Notes under the pieces: model-generated
Database searches by the model: none
What the model was told of the DNA's origin: nothing
Seen by the model: the letters and a program-made list of their open reading frames with translations, nothing else
DNA from: Bacteroidales bacterium
Lineage (GTDB): Bacteria > Bacteroidota > Bacteroidia > Bacteroidales > Muribaculaceae
Assembly: GCA_020859845.1 (NCBI GenBank)
Contig: JAJBVL010000050.1
Coordinates: forward strand, 1 to 64,000
DNA: 64,000 bases
Direction: 5' to 3'
Made by a program: the position numbers and the translations under genes
In this document: one piece after another, positions 52,351-60,896 of the stretch
Layout: each line of letters opens with the position of its first letter
Numbering within the stretch: the first letter of the stretch is position 1

Positions 52351-52428
52351 ATGGGCTTTTTGGGAAGAGAATGATAGCTAATTGGAGAAAAATGACTAAT
52401 TTAGCAGCTTGAATTGAAACCAATCCCC

Positions 52429-53538
52429 ATGAGTCAACATACACCCATCAAAGTAGGCATCACCCATGGCGATATCAATGGTATAAGCTACGAGTTGATA
52501 TTAAAAGCCTTGGAGGATAATCGCATTCTTGAACTTTGCACCCCCGTCATTTATGGCTCGGCCAAAATAGCCGCTCTGTATCGCAAGATGATACAGCATC
52601 CAGGGATTCCCTTAGTGCAAGTGGCCTCTGGAGCCGATGCGCGCCACGGAGAGTATAATATCGTAAACGTGGTGGCTGAAGACACCAAGGTCGATACGGG
52701 ACAATCCACGCCTGTAGCTGGCCAAGCTGCTTTTGTGGCCTTGGAGCGTGCAGTGGCCGACCTCCGCAATGGCGACATCGACGTGCTGGTCACTGCCCCT
52801 ATCAACAAGCATAATATCCAGAGCCCTACATTCACTTTCCCAGGCCACACTGAGTATCTTGAGGCCTCGCTTGGCGAAGAGGGCGACAAGGCGCTGATGA
52901 TATTATGTACCGACAAGCTGCGTGTGGCATTAGTCACAGCCCATACTCCTCTGTCAAAGGTGGCTGAAAGCATCACCGAGGACAATATCGTGGAGCGATT
53001 GAAAGCCTTCAATCTCTCTCTCCAAAAGGATTTTGGGGTGACTCAGCCTCGTATTGCTGTGCTTTCGCTCAATCCTCATGCAGGCGAGCAGGGCCTCCTT
53101 GGCAAGGAAGAGCAAGAAGTGATAATCCCAGCCATCAAGAAGGCGCAGGAGGCCAAGATCAACTGTTTTGGACCCTATGCTTCCGATGGGTTCTTTGGCA
53201 GCGGGCAATTTGCACATTTTGACGGGGTGTTGGCCATGTATCACGACCAGGGCTTGACCCCTTTCAAGACACTGGCCATGGACAGCGGCGTCAACTTCAC
53301 GGCTGGCCTTCCCTACGTGCGCACATCTCCCGACCATGGCACAGCCTACGACATCGCCGGCAAGGGGCAGGCCTCTCCCTCCTCCATGCGCGAAGCTCTC
53401 TATATGGCCATTGACATATGGCGCAATCGTCAGCGCTATGCCACTGCGCATGCCAACCCCCTGCGCAAGCAGTATGTGGAGAAAAACAAGACCGACAATG
53501 TGGTGCTCGACCTCACAAAATCATCCGACGAAGAATAA
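52429..53538 (+). CDS. pdxA: 4-hydroxythreonine-4-phosphate dehydrogenase
   Basis: VGITHGDINGISYELILKAL; LAMYHDQGLTPFKTLAMDSGVNFTAGLPYVRTSPDHGTAYDIAGKG. Confidence 0.95.
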   Translation: MSQHTPIKVGITHGDINGISYELILKALEDNRILELCTPVIYGSAKIAALYRKMIQHPGIPLVQVASGADARHGEYNIVNVVAEDTKVDTGQSTPVAGQAAFVALERAVADLRNGDIDVLVTAPINKHNIQSPTFTFPGHTEYLEASLGEEGDKALMILCTDKLRVALVTAHTPLSKVAESITEDNIVERLKAFNLSLQKDFGVTQPRIAVLSLNPHAGEQGLLGKEEQEVIIPAIKKAQEAKINCFGPYASDGFFGSGQFAHFDGVLAMYHDQGLTPFKTLAMDSGVNFTAGLPYVRTSPDHGTAYDIAGKGQASPSSMREALYMAIDIWRNRQRYATAHANPLRKQYVEKNKTDNVVLDLTKSSDEE

Positions 53539-53543
53539 GAAGT

Positions 53544-54260
53544 ATGAACTACGCAATTATTGCCGCAGGCGAAGGTTCGCGCTTGGTGCAAGAAGGAGTG
53601 AAGTGGCCCAAGCCGTTGGTGAGACTCAATGGCCAACCCATGATAGAGCGTTTGATCGACATCTTTATGGCCAATAATCCCGAGTCGCTCACCGTGATCG
53701 TCAATGAGCAGATGACCCAAGTGAAAGAATTCTTGGAGAGCCTGACGTTGCCGGTGCCGTTTACTCTCGTTGTGAAGTCAACGCCGTCGTCGATGCATAG
53801 CTTTTATGAGGTGAGCCGCCACCTGCTTGCCCTTCCAGAGGATAAAAAGCTGTGTCTCACCACGGTCGACACCATCTTTCGCCCCTCCGACTTCGCAAGC
53901 TATATCCGAGCCTTTGAAGATGACAAGGTGGCCGATGGCTATATGGCCGTCACCTCGTTTATCGACGACGAGAAGCCGCTCTATATAAAAGTAGATAGCC
54001 AGATGGACATCACTGCTTTCTGCGACAAGCCCTTCCCGGGAGTAGAATATATCTCGGGAGGAGTCTATGGGCTGCGTAGAAGCGCCATACCCGTGCTCGA
54101 GGACTGTATGGCAAAGGGTGTGGCTCGCATGCGCAATTATCAGCGCGCCTTGGTAGAGGCCGGCCTTAAGCTGCGTGCCTATCCTTTCCCTAAGATAGTG
54201 GATGTGGACCATGCAGGAGATATAGCCACCGCAGAGGCGTTTCTTAACGACAGGAGCTGA
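53544..54260 (+). CDS. Sugar-phosphate-type nucleotidyltransferase (NTP_transferase fold)
   Basis: MNYAIIAAGEGSRLVQEGVKWPKPLVRLNGQPMIERLID. Confidence 0.85.
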   Translation: MNYAIIAAGEGSRLVQEGVKWPKPLVRLNGQPMIERLIDIFMANNPESLTVIVNEQMTQVKEFLESLTLPVPFTLVVKSTPSSMHSFYEVSRHLLALPEDKKLCLTTVDTIFRPSDFASYIRAFEDDKVADGYMAVTSFIDDEKPLYIKVDSQMDITAFCDKPFPGVEYISGGVYGLRRSAIPVLEDCMAKGVARMRNYQRALVEAGLKLRAYPFPKIVDVDHAGDIATAEAFLNDRS

Positions 54261-54311
54261 CCCCGGAGAAACCAACAACCAATCAAAACGAATATACTTA
54301 TCCACACTATA

Positions 54312-55187
54312 ATGGCTGAGATAAAAATAGCAGGGGTGATGCGTGCAGGCGCTTATTCCCCCAATCACATAGGCAACGATGCCGCTATCTTTAACATCGT
54401 GGCCGACCAACTGCGCAAGCGTGGCTGTGAAGTCAATGTCTATAGCGAGGAGCAACTAATCGCCGACAAAGTGACCGAGCCCATCATCGTCAACATGTGT
54501 CGCGAGATGCGCTCGATTGCCAAGCTCCAAGAGAAGGAAGACCATGGAGCGTTGGTGATCAACTCAGGCTACGGCATCGAGAACTGTACTCGCGAGCGCA
54601 TGACCCGTATACTCGTGGGTAGCAACATCCCTTATCCCGAAAGCTTGATTGTTGACACCAACGAAGGTATTCGCGAGAAGCTCATAAAGAATGGGTTTAA
54701 CCAATGCTGGATTAAGCGCGGCGACTTCCACGCCATGCACAAAGAGGACGTGAGCTACGTGCGTCATCCCGAGGAGGCTCAGGAGGTGCTTCAAGAATAC
54801 TTCCTGCGTGGCATTAAACGCGCAGTCATCAATCGCCATCTCGTAGGCGACTTGATAAAATTTTATGGTGTGCAGGGCACGCCCTTCTTCTTCTGGTTTT
54901 ATCCCTTCGACGAGGGCCATAGCAAGTATGGCCACGAAGCTGTCAATGGCAAGTCGCAGGGCCTCCCCTTTGACAAAGAGCGCCTAAAAGCCATCTGTCA
55001 AAACGCCTCGGAGGTGCTGGACGTGAAAATTTATGGCGGCGACTGCATAGTGTCGCCCGAAGGTGATATCCGTATTATTGACTTTAACGACTGGCCCAGT
55101 TTTGCGCCTTGTCGCAACGAGGCCGCCCCTCATATTGCTAAATGTATTATCAACTCGATAAAAAATCATCCTCTCACCAACAAGTAG
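54312..55187 (+). CDS. ATP-grasp-type protein
   Basis: IPYPESLIVDT, RGIKRAVINRHLVGDLIKFYGVQGTPFFFWFYP, LDVKIYGGDCIVSPEGDIRIIDFNDWPSFAPCRNEAAPHIA. Confidence 0.7.
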   Translation: MAEIKIAGVMRAGAYSPNHIGNDAAIFNIVADQLRKRGCEVNVYSEEQLIADKVTEPIIVNMCREMRSIAKLQEKEDHGALVINSGYGIENCTRERMTRILVGSNIPYPESLIVDTNEGIREKLIKNGFNQCWIKRGDFHAMHKEDVSYVRHPEEAQEVLQEYFLRGIKRAVINRHLVGDLIKFYGVQGTPFFFWFYPFDEGHSKYGHEAVNGKSQGLPFDKERLKAICQNASEVLDVKIYGGDCIVSPEGDIRIIDFNDWPSFAPCRNEAAPHIAKCIINSIKNHPLTNK

Positions 55188-55198
55188 CGCGCCAGGAT

Positions 55199-56131
55199 AT
55201 GAAAGAGACCTCCGGGTATAAGGCCTCGCTAAAGTCGATGGATACAGAAGAACATATCGACTTGGCGTTTTATCGCCCTATAGGATATATGTGGGCCTGT
55301 CTTGCCAAGCGTCTTGGCATTACTCCCAACGCTATCACAATCGCCTCTATCTTCCTTGGTATAGGAGCGGGTGTGGCTTTCTATTTCAACGATATTTGGA
55401 TTAATATAATAGGAGTAGTGTTGCTGGTCTGGGCCAATTCGTTTGACAGCGCCGATGGCCAGCTGGCTCGAATGACCAAGCAGTATTCGCGTCTTGGCCG
55501 TATACTCGACGGCTTGAGCGGCGACCTGTGGTTCCTGTCAATCTACATAGCCATCTGTCTTCGCGAGAATTATACCTCCCACTTCTTTATGGCCCATCCA
55601 TGGCTTATATGGGTCATAGCTGTGGTCACTGGTCTCTGCCACGCCAAGCAGGCGGCTATGGCCGACTATTACCGCCAGTTTCACCTCTATTTTCTTAAGG
55701 GTGAGGAGGGGAGCGAACTTGAACGCGCCTTCTCGCTAAAACGCAAGCTCGCTAAGCTGACGTGGCGCCACAACTTCTGGCAGAAGCTTACCTTGAGCTT
55801 CTACACCAACTATACCCTACAGCAGGAGGCTACCACCCCAGCCATGTCGCGGCTGCGCACAGAGCTTTCCCAGCGCTTCCCCGACGGGAAGATACCTCAG
55901 TCGTTTCGCGACGCCTTTCGCAAGGCAAGCCTGCCGCTGATGAAGTACACCAATATATTGTCGTTTAATTGGCGCACGATAGCTCTCTTCGTCGCTATAT
56001 TCCTGTTGATGCCGTGGCTCTATTTCGCTTTCGAGCTGACGGTGCTCAACGTTATACTGCTGATGATGGTATGGCGTCATGAACGTATCTGCAAACGTTT
56101 TACCCAAGAACTGAAAGATGGAAAATACTAA
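55199..56131 (+). CDS. CDP-alcohol phosphatidyltransferase family membrane protein
   Basis: CDP-AP motif FDSADGQLARMTKQYSRLGRILDGLSGD, multiple TMs. Confidence 0.9.
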   Translation: MKETSGYKASLKSMDTEEHIDLAFYRPIGYMWACLAKRLGITPNAITIASIFLGIGAGVAFYFNDIWINIIGVVLLVWANSFDSADGQLARMTKQYSRLGRILDGLSGDLWFLSIYIAICLRENYTSHFFMAHPWLIWVIAVVTGLCHAKQAAMADYYRQFHLYFLKGEEGSELERAFSLKRKLAKLTWRHNFWQKLTLSFYTNYTLQQEATTPAMSRLRTELSQRFPDGKIPQSFRDAFRKASLPLMKYTNILSFNWRTIALFVAIFLLMPWLYFAFELTVLNVILLMMVWRHERICKRFTQELKDGKY

Positions 56132-56831
56132 AATTAAAGGAATAATCTTTGATTACGGTGGGACAATCGACACGCGGGGTGTCCACTGGAGCTGGGTGAT
56201 ACGCGATGGCTATGAAGCTGTTGGTGTGCCAGTGGGTCTTCAAGACTTCCGCGATGCCTACGTGTATGCCGAGCGTGAACTGGCACGCACACGCCACATC
56301 TATCCCCATCACAACTTCTATCATCTGCTCAAGATTAAGATGGACATCGAGCTTGGCTATCTCGTAGAGCATGGGATATTGTCTCAAGGGTCCGTTGAGA
56401 AATATGCTGAGCCGGTGGCGGCTTATTGTTATGATGCTGCTCGCAATGCCGTTGAGGATGCGCGCCCCACTCTGGAAGCGCTTTATCAACGCTATCCTCT
56501 GGTGTTGGTGTCAAACTTCTATGGCAATGTTGAGGCCGTACTGGCCGACTTTGACTTGCTGCGCTACTTCCGTCAGATTATAGAGAGCGCGGTGGTGGGC
56601 GTCCGTAAGCCCGACCCAGCTATCTTCCAGCTCGGAGTAGATGCTTTGGGGCTGAAGCCCCAAGAGGTGTTGGTGATTGGCGACAGCTACCGTAAGGACA
56701 TTGAGCCTGCACGTAAGATAGGGTGTCAAGTGGCTTGGCTCAAGGGCCGTGGCTGGACCGCCGATGAAGACGCTGTGGAGGACTCAGCAATGATCTCGCA
56801 GCTCGGAGATGTGCTAAGGGTAGCGTTATAA
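56118..56831 (+). CDS. HAD-superfamily hydrolase
   Basis: GIIFDYGGTIDT, LVLVSNFYG, VGVRKPDPAIF, VLVIGDSYRKDI; overlaps the previous gene by 14 nt. Confidence 0.88.
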   Translation: MENTKIKGIIFDYGGTIDTRGVHWSWVIRDGYEAVGVPVGLQDFRDAYVYAERELARTRHIYPHHNFYHLLKIKMDIELGYLVEHGILSQGSVEKYAEPVAAYCYDAARNAVEDARPTLEALYQRYPLVLVSNFYGNVEAVLADFDLLRYFRQIIESAVVGVRKPDPAIFQLGVDALGLKPQEVLVIGDSYRKDIEPARKIGCQVAWLKGRGWTADEDAVEDSAMISQLGDVLRVAL

Positions 56832-57042
56832 ATGCTTAACATAAAAACGCCTAATTTAGTTTGAATTTAAATATATCTAACAATATTCGCAAAATATTAT
56901 TGATTTTTAGTAAAAATAAGCGCTTTTTAAATTGAAAATATTTTCACACCTTGAAAATTACTACTACTTTTACGCGCAATTTTTACAAGACAAATAGTAA
57001 ACCAAGAAATAACACTCAAAAAGACTTATCAACAACCTGATC

Positions 57043-58350
57043 ATGAACAAATCAAATGTTAAGCCTGCAGAAGGCAAACTTGGAGTTCTCGTAGTAGGAC
57101 TGGGAGCCGTAAGCTCTACATTTATGACTGGTGTGCTCATGGCTCGCAAAGGGCTTGCAAAGCCTGTAGGCTCCATGACGCAGTATGACAAAATCCGTGT
57201 AGGAAAAGGTGCCGACAAGAAATATCTGAAATATGATGAGATAGTGCCCATGGCCAAGCTCGACGACATCGTATTTGGCGCTTGGGACGTATATCCTGCC
57301 AACGCCTACGAGAGCGCTATCAATTGTGAGGTGCTGAAGGAGAAGGATATCGAGCCCGTAAAGGATGAGCTCGTGAAGATCAAGCCTATGAAGGCTGCCT
57401 TCGACCACAATTATGCAAAGCGTCTTGATGGCGACAATGTAAAGCAGGTGAAGGATCGCTGGGATATGACCGAGCAGATACGCGAAGATATCCGTCGCTT
57501 CAAGAAGGAGACTGGTGTTGACCGCGTAGTAGTGCTTTGGGCAGCTTCTACCGAGGTATATGTCCCAGTAGATGAGAAGATTCATGGCTCGCTTGAGGCT
57601 CTTGAGGCTGCAATGAAGGCCGACGACAAGGACCATATCGCTCCCTCGATGTGCTATGCTTATGCAGCTCTGAGCGAAGGTTGTCCTTTCATCATGGGTG
57701 CCCCCAACACCACCGTTGATATCCCCGCCATGTGGGAGCTCAGCGAGAAGACCGGTATGCCTATCGCTGGTAAGGACTTCAAGACTGGCCAGACACTGGT
57801 GAAGAGCGGTTTTGCTCCCATCATCGGCACACGTTGCCTTGGCCTCTCTGGATGGTTCTCAACCAACATTCTTGGCAACCGCGATGGTCTGGTGCTCGAC
57901 GAACCTGCCAACTTCCGCACCAAGGAGGTATCGAAGCTCTCCACTCTGGAATCGATCCTCGTGCCCGAGAATCAGCCCGACCTCTATACCGACTACTACC
58001 ACAAGGTACGTATCAACTACTATCCTCCCCGCAACGACAACAAGGAAGGCTGGGACAACATCGACATCTTTGGCTGGATGGGCTACCCCATGCAGATCAA
58101 GATCAACTTCCTCTGCCGCGACTCTATCCTCGCTGCTCCTCTTTGCCTTGACCTCGTGCTCCTCAGCGACCTCGCTGCTCGCGCTGGCCGCCACGGCATA
58201 CAGCGTTTCTTGAGCTTCTTCCTCAAGAGCCCTATGCACGACTACACCAAGGGCGAAGTGCCTGTCAACCATCTCTTCCAGCAGTATGTAATGCTGAAGA
58301 ACGCTCTGCGCGAGATGGGCGGCTATGAGGCCGATGAAGAAATTGACTAA
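57043..58350 (+). CDS. Inositol-3-phosphate synthase (myo-inositol-1-phosphate synthase)
   Basis: LGVLVVGLGAVSSTFMTGVLMAR, GWFSTNILGNRDGLVLDEPANFRTKEVSKLSTLESIL, DIFGWMGYPMQIKINFLCRDSILAAPLCLDLVLL. Confidence 0.93.
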   Translation: MNKSNVKPAEGKLGVLVVGLGAVSSTFMTGVLMARKGLAKPVGSMTQYDKIRVGKGADKKYLKYDEIVPMAKLDDIVFGAWDVYPANAYESAINCEVLKEKDIEPVKDELVKIKPMKAAFDHNYAKRLDGDNVKQVKDRWDMTEQIREDIRRFKKETGVDRVVVLWAASTEVYVPVDEKIHGSLEALEAAMKADDKDHIAPSMCYAYAALSEGCPFIMGAPNTTVDIPAMWELSEKTGMPIAGKDFKTGQTLVKSGFAPIIGTRCLGLSGWFSTNILGNRDGLVLDEPANFRTKEVSKLSTLESILVPENQPDLYTDYYHKVRINYYPPRNDNKEGWDNIDIFGWMGYPMQIKINFLCRDSILAAPLCLDLVLLSDLAARAGRHGIQRFLSFFLKSPMHDYTKGEVPVNHLFQQYVMLKNALREMGGYEADEEID

Positions 58351-58385
58351 AGAATGTTTTAAGTTAGGTATTATTCAAACCAAAG

Positions 58386-58418
58386 CGAGGGCTGCCGTGA
58401 GGCAGCCCTCGTTGTTTA
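58386..58418. terminator. Bidirectional terminator between convergent genes
   Basis: CGAGGGCTGCC-gtga-GGCAGCCCTCG then T-rich. Confidence 0.88.
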
Positions 58419-58450: not shown

Positions 58451-59608
58451 TTAGCGCACGATGTATTTCTTACCGTTGGCGATATAAATACCAGCTGGAA
58501 GACCCTCGAGAGAGTTGACCTGTGAGCGCACCTTTACGCCCATAGTGTTGTAGACATCAAAGGGGGCGCCTGTCGAGAGGTCGGCGTCGACGGTAGTGAT
58601 GCCAGTGATGTATTCTTCCTTTGTCATAATCTTAAGCTCGCTGGGGGTACCTGAACTTACAGGGAGATAAGCCGTGTTGGCGTCAATCCACTGGCGTGAG
58701 CTGTCTGTGACAAAGCCAATAGAGCCGTCGGCAGTTACCCCCAGCACACGCATTGTGGAGGCTTGATAGTCGGTGCGGTTGTAGTGCTTACCTTTGGTGC
58801 CGCCTGTGGCTGAGTTGCCGTCGTCAAAGTTGAAGTATACGCCCTTGAGGAGGTTGGTGGGGTTGGCCGACGACGAGCCGCCGATGTCCAGACGATTGTC
58901 AGAGGGAGAATCGGAGGTGAGCTTAAACAACACTGGTGTGTTGGCAGGCACCACTCCCTTCACCTCTTCAATCACAGCAGCGCCAAAGTCGGGGTCGACC
59001 ATGGTGACTGTCCATACGCTTACACCAGTGGAATAGGGCGTGAATGGGAAGTCGGCATACATCGTGGCATAGTAGCCTTGAGAAGTCTCCTCGGTGGCCT
59101 GTACGCCAAAGTAATTATCGTCGTCGGTGGCGTCAATCGCGTCAAAGTACCATAGACGTTCCTCGCCAGTGCCTTTTTCCGAGAGATAACCCACCTCTTT
59201 AGTGAGCACAAACTCGCCGTCGCAGAGATATTTTGTCATGCCACTTTTCGAGCCGTAAGCGTAGAAGCAACCATACTTGCCCGCCATAATGCGTACATAG
59301 GTGCTAATAATATCATTAATACTCGTGCCCTGAGTGTTAATGTTGTACTGCACGCCCGAATAGTTGACCACGTGCATCACGCTTGCAGGATTGCTCGTGG
59401 CGCGCGCATGAGTCTTATATAGCTCGATGGCGCCAAGGTCGGCTGTAGAAGCTTGATAGTTGATGGAGCCTTTGTTGTCGAGCACGAATGCATAACGGTC
59501 AGTATAATAGTTGCGTATACGATAATAGCCATCGGCAACCGGAGGATTTGATGCAGCAAATGCAGTGGCGCAGGTGGCCAGGGTGAGAAGGAGTAAGAGT
59601 TTTCTCAT
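58451..59608 (-). CDS. Secreted protein with type-A-sorting-like C-terminal tail
   Basis: Signal peptide MRKLLLLLTLATCATAFAA; C-terminus FDVYNTMGVKVRSQVNSLEGLPAGIYIANGKKYIVR. Confidence 0.7.
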   Translation of the reverse strand: MRKLLLLLTLATCATAFAASNPPVADGYYRIRNYYTDRYAFVLDNKGSINYQASTADLGAIELYKTHARATSNPASVMHVVNYSGVQYNINTQGTSINDIISTYVRIMAGKYGCFYAYGSKSGMTKYLCDGEFVLTKEVGYLSEKGTGEERLWYFDAIDATDDDNYFGVQATEETSQGYYATMYADFPFTPYSTGVSVWTVTMVDPDFGAAVIEEVKGVVPANTPVLFKLTSDSPSDNRLDIGGSSSANPTNLLKGVYFNFDDGNSATGGTKGKHYNRTDYQASTMRVLGVTADGSIGFVTDSSRQWIDANTAYLPVSSGTPSELKIMTKEEYITGITTVDADLSTGAPFDVYNTMGVKVRSQVNSLEGLPAGIYIANGKKYIVR

Positions 59609-60825: not shown

Positions 60826-60896
60826 GCAACAAAGGTATATAATATTAAACGCTAAACCAAACAAACTCATTATCTTTGTAGTGAGATTTTCGCTGA

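Follow-up and report, generated by a model that had tools for sequence, protein, structure and literature searches.

How do Bacteroidota join inositol to a lipid where the characterised route is missing, and what would an ATP-grasp protein contribute to the process? Both questions are raised by a locus in the first 64,000 nucleotides of contig JAJBVL010000050.1 (forward strand; hereafter the window), from a Muribaculaceae bacterium of the order Bacteroidales (GenBank assembly GCA_020859845.1). On the plus strand, consecutive genes encode an NTP-transferase (NTP, 53544..54260), an ATP-grasp protein (ATPG, 54312..55187), a CDP-alcohol-transferase-related membrane protein (CAP, 55199..56131), a HAD subfamily IA hydrolase (HAD, 56118..56831) and a myo-inositol-phosphate synthase (MIPS, 57043..58350). 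We consider it reasonably probable that this operon specifies a CDP-inositol lipid pathway, Kennedy-like in proceeding through a soluble CDP-headgroup, that includes an ITPK-like kinase of the inositol headgroup. MIPS would supply inositol-3-phosphate, the established product of its family; NTP, using CTP, would activate an inositol phosphate to CDP-inositol; CAP would transfer phosphoinositol from the CDP-headgroup to the hydroxyl of a lipid, diacylglycerol and/or dihydroceramide; ATPG would phosphorylate the inositol headgroup, either before its attachment to the lipid, in the form of inositol phosphate, or afterwards; and HAD would strip a phosphate from an intermediate. These enzyme activities are predicted from what is directly seen, namely gene order, co-occurrence, motifs, folds, selection, two gene fusions and clusters that carry two routes at once.

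Part of this scheme has a precedent. Heaver et al. (2022) reported that among MIPS-bearing Bacteroides or Prevotella genomes almost all possess one of two clusters: BT_1522/23/25, or an alternate set consisting of an NTP-transferase, a CDP-alcohol transferase and a HAD hydrolase, for which they proposed, as an unconfirmed model, synthesis of phosphatidylinositol (PI) via CDP-inositol without a phosphatidylinositol phosphate (PIP) intermediate; the paper makes no mention of an ATP-grasp protein (PMC9246714). In a 2023 review the model reappears, described as uncharacterised (PMC10191378), and our literature search found no later test of it. The CDP-inositol reading, which had also been put forward in the original prediction made from the DNA of the window, was thus already published as a hypothesis and is not new. 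What is new here is the match of NTP to characterised inositol-phosphate cytidylyltransferases, the loss of a signature aspartate in CAP, which is not a BT_1523-type PIP synthase, the link between ATPG and MIPS, the fusion of ATPG to NTP in two genomes and its profile similarity to ITPK inositol kinases, the presence of ATPG in genomes with the PIP route only, and the existence of genomes with both routes (53/247).

Enzymes of a predicted CDP-inositol route

The original prediction had recognised an inositol-lipid cluster, which is supported, and had equated it with the core Bacteroides pathway, in which PIP is made and then dephosphorylated, which is not. The source genome gives no match to the model of the BT_1522-type PI-dihydroceramide synthase (NF052609), a null that is uninformative taken alone and was therefore controlled by running the same model on 247 relatives, of which 76 match. 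CAP scores 26.8 bits against the BT_1523-type PIP synthase model NF052561, below its cut-off of 350, and HAD is not PgpA. By comparison, the alternative raised there, that the nucleotidyltransferase makes CDP-inositol, is supported at the level of both enzymes, as described below.

NTP (PF12804, NTP_transf_3, 2e-11) is an IPCT-like cytidylyltransferase. In a profile search of the PDB with a profile built from 21 sequences, its best match is 4jd0, over the full length (3.7e-11), and the Archaeoglobus fulgidus CTP:inositol-1-phosphate cytidylyltransferases (IPCTs) 2xme and 4mnd likewise align over their full length, whereas the alignments of hexose-1-phosphate enzymes are mostly confined to residues 1-185. 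The best full-length structural relatives of NTP are thus IPCTs. The structure 4JD0 is the Thermotoga maritima inositol-1-phosphate cytidylyltransferase, with R16, K26 and D112 as critical residues (PMC12275187); these correspond, with the same spacing, to R13, K23 and D109 of NTP and are invariant in 21 of 21 aligned sequences. Because CpgD, which has a different substrate, carries the same catalytic set, these residues do not fix the substrate of NTP; we infer from the full-length relationship that it would form CDP-inositol.

CAP matches PF01066 (CDP-OH_P_transf, 2e-13) and is predicted to be a CDP-inositol:lipid phosphoinositol transferase. Its open reading frame (ORF) has an alternative upstream ATG at 55142 (ORF 55142-56131), but the ATG at 55199 is the likelier start because homology begins downstream of 55142 and 55199 lies only 11 nt past the ATPG stop. 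In a profile search of the PDB it ranks nearest to AF2299 (4e-12), then CHPT1/CEPT1 (2e-5) and only then PIP synthases (6e-4 and weaker), which places it closer to AF2299 and the Kennedy-type enzymes than to PIP synthases. Its AlphaFold2 (AF2) model (pLDDT 89.7) has the CDP-alcohol phosphotransferase core with a divergent C-terminal half, and matches AF2299 in Foldseek with probability 1.0 over about 150 residues (E 0.006). CDP-alcohol phosphotransferases have eight absolutely conserved residues, of which the fourth aspartate is the likely catalytic base; its D93N mutation inactivates MtPIPS (PMC4634129). CAP retains seven of the eight residues of the signature D1xxD2GxxAR...GxxxD3xxxD4, with D4 replaced by Gly (G108). 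The motif comparison with PIP synthases that had been suggested earlier was run on 160 homologous stretches, of which 155 have Gly at this position and five Asp, as opposed to Asp in 10/10 BT-type PIP synthases; we take the five Asp-bearing stretches to be aminotransferase-linked paralogues. By its signature CAP is therefore related to, but outside the canonical membership of, the CDP-alcohol phosphotransferases. Eukaryotic Kennedy enzymes are thought to deprotonate the lipid via a histidine (PMC10156783, PMC10182977), and in the CAP family an invariant histidine (H148, counted from ATG 55199) lies beyond the signature, within a helix predicted to cross the membrane. CAP probably uses a base other than the D4 aspartate, perhaps this histidine.

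The paralogues of CAP keep varied company: a TagD-like enzyme and an SDR protein (G121, G002), an IspD-like enzyme (G142), or an aminotransferase and an IPCT-like enzyme (G020, G134). The simplest reading is that the family plausibly takes soluble CDP-alcohols, each member having its own cytidylyltransferase. Two further arrangements were observed. In loci L051 (4333-7008) and L061 (3981-6653) a second set, comprising an aminotransferase, a CDP-alcohol phosphotransferase with canonical D4 and an NTP-transferase, lies just upstream of the inositol cluster, and the best model for that NTP-transferase in L051 is the Thermococcales IPCT/DIPPS. In L176 (7650-11704) and L178 (5359-10215), a TagD-like cytidylyltransferase, an SDR protein, a CAP paralogue, LPG_synthase_TM and an acyltransferase-like ORF would constitute another uncharacterised CDP-alcohol lipid cluster.

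HAD (PF00702, 7e-19) belongs to a phosphatase-like family and is predicted to dephosphorylate an intermediate, either an inositol phosphate or a phosphoinositol lipid. Its motif I is DYGGT, with DxG rather than DxD; DYG or DFG is found in nearly all homologues, and motifs II-IV are present. No transmembrane segment is predicted in it, pointing to a soluble protein. A fusion of LPG_synthase_TM to HAD in genome G122 was upheld by blastp. Long ORFs in G068 and L142 had suggested a fusion of CAP to HAD, but blastp finds only HAD in frame, and this candidate was rejected. MIPS (PF07994, 1e-102; PF01658, 7e-30) is present as a single copy in the source genome.

An ATP-grasp protein that accompanies bacterial inositol lipids

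Three samples of genomes were surveyed: 149 from Bacteroidales, 248 from across the phylum and 247 from Muribaculaceae. These genomes are incomplete and related, so that the counts below are non-independent events and the p values optimistic. ATPG is found in 18/149 Bacteroidales genomes, every one of which also has MIPS, itself found in 23/149 (Fisher 5e-19, uncorrected for phylogeny). Across the phylum, 11 of the 12 genomes with strong ATPG matches have MIPS, versus 41/248 overall (p 8e-9). ATPG thus emerges as a conserved partner of inositol-lipid genes in bacteria. In the twelfth genome, G582, which is without MIPS, NTP, ATPG, CAP, LPG_synthase_TM and HAD are clustered with a PfkB-family sugar kinase in place of MIPS (L174, 6114-7049), possibly a myo-inositol kinase that replaces it, with inositol salvaged rather than made. 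ATPG stays in this cluster beside a separate kinase, which makes it less likely as a kinase of free inositol.

Within the Muribaculaceae sample, CAP is present in 204 genomes and the PI-dihydroceramide synthase in 76, with 53 holding both, 23 the synthase only (PIP-only genomes) and 20 neither. ATPG occurs in 202 of the 204 CAP genomes, in 22 of the 23 PIP-only genomes and in five of the 20 with neither. Since three loci, L088, L124 and L142 (Paramuribaculum intestinale DSM 100749), carry both cassettes in a single gene run, the two lipid routes are not simply alternatives. In G139 and G170, ATPG lies within a BT-type cluster of PIP synthase, GtrA and PI-dihydroceramide synthase, accompanied in G170 also by PgpA. 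The omega of ATPG is 0.08; two PIP-only genera have medians of 0.076 and 0.079, and relatives with the CDP route 0.093. As purifying selection retains it in 22/23 PIP-only genomes, ATPG is not specific to CDP-inositol, and the idea that it is a helper of that route only was ruled out. One PIP-only genus has Glu in place of the otherwise near-invariant D244, together with a partly altered lid loop; the substrate of ATPG may have shifted there.

The ATP-grasp fold of ATPG is evident from its AF2 model (pLDDT 87.7) and Foldseek, and the Pfam scan of the window protein gave no match of its own. The original prediction had asked whether this protein serves headgroup or aminoacyl ligation; among solved structures, the ITPK inositol kinases are closest to it, with ligases not far behind. 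ITPKs come first in two profile searches of the PDB (1z2n, 2.6e-9 then 3.4e-8), with AtITPK4 at 9e-5 then 4e-7 (7pup, 4e-7) and human ITPK1 at 2e-3 then 3e-4. ATPG and ITPKs have in common a stretch G-x-D ... D-x-N-x-x-P-S-F/Y, which includes the D-x-N metal motif. In two genomes, G023 (513 aa) and G111 (525 aa), blastp identifies NTP and ATPG fused as one ORF. That ATPG is an ITPK-like kinase of the inositol headgroup, acting on inositol phosphate or on the completed lipid, is a proposal to which we give a little under even chances. Somewhat more tentatively still, gut and other Bacteroidota may possess their own, bacterial branch of the ITPK-type inositol-phosphate kinases, whose genes lie with those for inositol lipids and persist whichever lipid route is present; the cells would then make inositol bis- or polyphosphates, or lipids resembling phosphoinositides. 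Working beside this kinase would be a subfamily of CDP-alcohol transferases that dispenses with the D4 aspartate.

Several observations weigh against this picture of a CDP-inositol pathway with an inositol kinase. The ITPK Pfam family PF05770 gives no match to the ATPG of the window and matches one of 17 relatives at 4e-4, and because it misses ATPG we call the protein ITPK-like, not ITPK. Foldseek places D-Ala ligases, LysX and PsnB alongside ITPK1, leaving the subfamily unsettled; PsnB matches at 5e-5 then 9e-8, nearly level with ITPKs in the second, broader profile search, where RimK-like ligases also match at 0.002-0.006. The retention of ATPG in PIP-only genomes defeats any role limited to a CDP-inositol precursor, and ATPG is also kept in three species of one genus (L184, L198, L200; G239, G204, G223), in whose genomes MIPS, CAP and the PI-dihydroceramide synthase were all searched for and none found. 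CAP is without the aspartate whose change to Asn kills MtPIPS (PMC4634129), motif I of HAD has lost its second Asp, and the search for MIPS came up empty in a few CAP-bearing genomes that are fairly complete, such as G150.

The ligase relationship can be taken at face value: ATPG would then be a RimK/PsnB/MptN-like enzyme attaching an amino acid either to the headgroup inositol or to an aminated form of it, and the product would be flipped by LPG_synthase_TM, which neighbours ATPG clusters in many relatives. RimK and MptN are also weak NCBIfam matches of ATPG, and distant clusters contain a class-III aminotransferase and an IolG-like dehydrogenase, which together could supply an aminoinositol acceptor. 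However, ITPKs outrank ligases in both profile searches, the metal motif of ATPG is D-x-N as in ITPKs where the PsnB alignment has E-L-N, and most clusters lack both an aminotransferase and an aminoacyl donor gene; we regard ligation as fairly unlikely. A more specific form of the kinase proposal, which we hold to be improbable, would give every conserved gene one step: ATPG would make Ins(1,3)P2 from Ins3P by acting at O-1, NTP would activate the 1-phosphate, CAP would make a PI3P-type lipid and HAD would remove the 3-phosphate. The product would be D-1-linked PI, the same as that of the PIP route. The fusions of ATPG to NTP and of HAD to the membrane protein LPG_synthase_TM fit such a series, and human ITPK1 is itself an inositol 1-kinase, to judge by the molecule names, yet PIP-only genomes keep ATPG under selection and would not need it.

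The published reading has NTP making CDP-inositol, CAP making PI and HAD serving as an AUR1-like PI-dihydroceramide synthase (PMC9246714), with the ATP-grasp gene irrelevant; in its favour, Bacteroides vulgatus, with the alternate cluster, makes PI-dihydroceramide. As a whole it strikes us as very improbable: HAD is soluble and of a phosphatase-like family, it stands beside a true PI-dihydroceramide synthase in the clusters carrying both cassettes, and ATPG is conserved as well as the other cluster genes. The synthase role for HAD was accordingly disfavoured. Even less credence goes to the possibility that the headgroup is not inositol, NTP acting on a hexose-1-phosphate and MIPS being nearby by coincidence. 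RmlA/GlmU-type enzymes do match NTP by sequence and a few CAP-bearing genomes have no detected MIPS, but the hexose enzymes fall short of the full-length IPCT alignment, the co-occurrence with MIPS is tight over unrelated families, a second ATPG locus in G423 is accompanied by a second MIPS, and the MIPS-less cluster has the PfkB kinase. The CDP-inositol pathway with an ITPK-like kinase remains our preferred explanation.

In gut Bacteroidota, inositol lipids have effects on the capsule, on resistance to antimicrobial peptides and on colonisation (PMC9246714); for many species the route to them is a predicted one. According to a 2021 review, the ITPKs known by then outside eukaryotes were archaeal (PMC8024741); if ATPG is an inositol-phosphate kinase, eukaryotic-type inositol-phosphate enzymes would be present in common gut bacteria.

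Gene order and surroundings of the locus

All ORFs of the same-strand run described in the original prediction were found at their positions, including the 14-nt overlap of CAP and HAD. The other intergenic distances are 51 nt between NTP and ATPG and 211 nt between HAD and MIPS. Only 5 nt separate NTP from a pdxA homologue directly 5' (4-hydroxythreonine-4-phosphate dehydrogenase; 52414..53538, plus strand; TIGR00557, 370 bits, cut-off 290), which probably opens the operon. Most of 80 Muribaculaceae loci have PdxA ahead of NTP-ATPG, and it adjoins ATPG also in the PIP-only G170 and in the orphan G239 (PdxA-ATPG); a vitamin B6 gene thus keeps company with inositol-lipid genes.

The nearest records with the same genes are from Muribaculaceae. 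In the synteny survey, likewise proposed beforehand, the order NTP-ATPG-CAP-HAD-MIPS recurs in about half of the 80 loci, the remainder being partial or variant, and NTP-ATPG-CAP is also seen in further families of Bacteroidales and beyond the class. From this recurrence, the gene order is far beyond chance. Seven loci of distant Bacteroidota (L163, L164, L166, L167, L168, L171 and L172) add, between NTP and MIPS, the lipid-transport genes MlaE and MlaD with an ABC-type ATPase, the class-III aminotransferase and the IolG-like dehydrogenase, with two tandem ATP-grasp genes in four of the seven; their content suggests an aminoinositol lipid. Three records of metagenome-assembled genomes titled Lachnospiraceae, Pseudoflavonifractor and Clostridium (L067, L068, L075) hold Muribaculaceae-type ATPG at 78-85% identity and are probably mislabelled.

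A terminator-like hairpin of 13 pairs, nine of them G-C, lies 3' of MIPS (58384..58413, plus strand; a consensus match only). The canonical Bacteroidetes promoter TTTG-N17-21-TANNTTTG has seven matches in the window versus 0.34 expected by chance (e.g., 60830-60861, minus strand), none of them 5' of the operon or of MIPS. Downstream of MIPS, a 385-aa ORF (58451-59608, minus strand) has a signal-peptide-like N-terminus and no Pfam family.

Relation to known systems

The Bacteroides thetaiotaomicron operon BT_1522-BT_1526 resembles the present locus in combining MIPS, a CDP-alcohol transferase and a phosphatase. However, it has a PIP synthase, a PgpA-type phosphatase and an AUR1-like synthase, none of which types is found in the window cluster, and the last is missing from the source genome. 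The closer likeness is to the alternative cluster of B. vulgatus and Prevotella described by Heaver et al. (BVU_RS13095/13105/13115), which has the NTP-transferase, the CDP-alcohol transferase and HAD beside MIPS. That paper regards the two clusters as alternatives, whereas 53/247 Muribaculaceae genomes hold both; it also casts HAD as the PI-dihydroceramide synthase and omits the ATP-grasp protein, whereas the present locus has ATPG and a soluble HAD.

At the level of single proteins, ATPG has the fold and the D-x-N-x-x-P-S-F/Y metal-site motif of the ITPK family (human ITPK1, Entamoeba histolytica 1Z2N, AtITPK4), but it is a divergent, shorter form in Bacteroidota, with a poorly conserved histidine motif and with nearly all its members below Pfam detection. 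NTP has the nucleotidyltransferase fold, full-length profile match and R/K/D residues of the IPCT and IPCT-DIPPS enzymes of Thermotoga and Archaeoglobus (4JD0, 2XME, 4MND). There the enzyme is stand-alone or DIPPS-fused and serves a compatible solute; here it is encoded in a lipid operon and is fused to an ATP-grasp domain in two relatives. Finally, the CPG2 pathway of Caulobacter (CpgD, PMC12275187), although its headgroup is phosphoglycerate, unlike the inositol predicted here, similarly deploys an IPCT-like cytidylyltransferase to make the CDP-headgroup of a bacterial sphingolipid.

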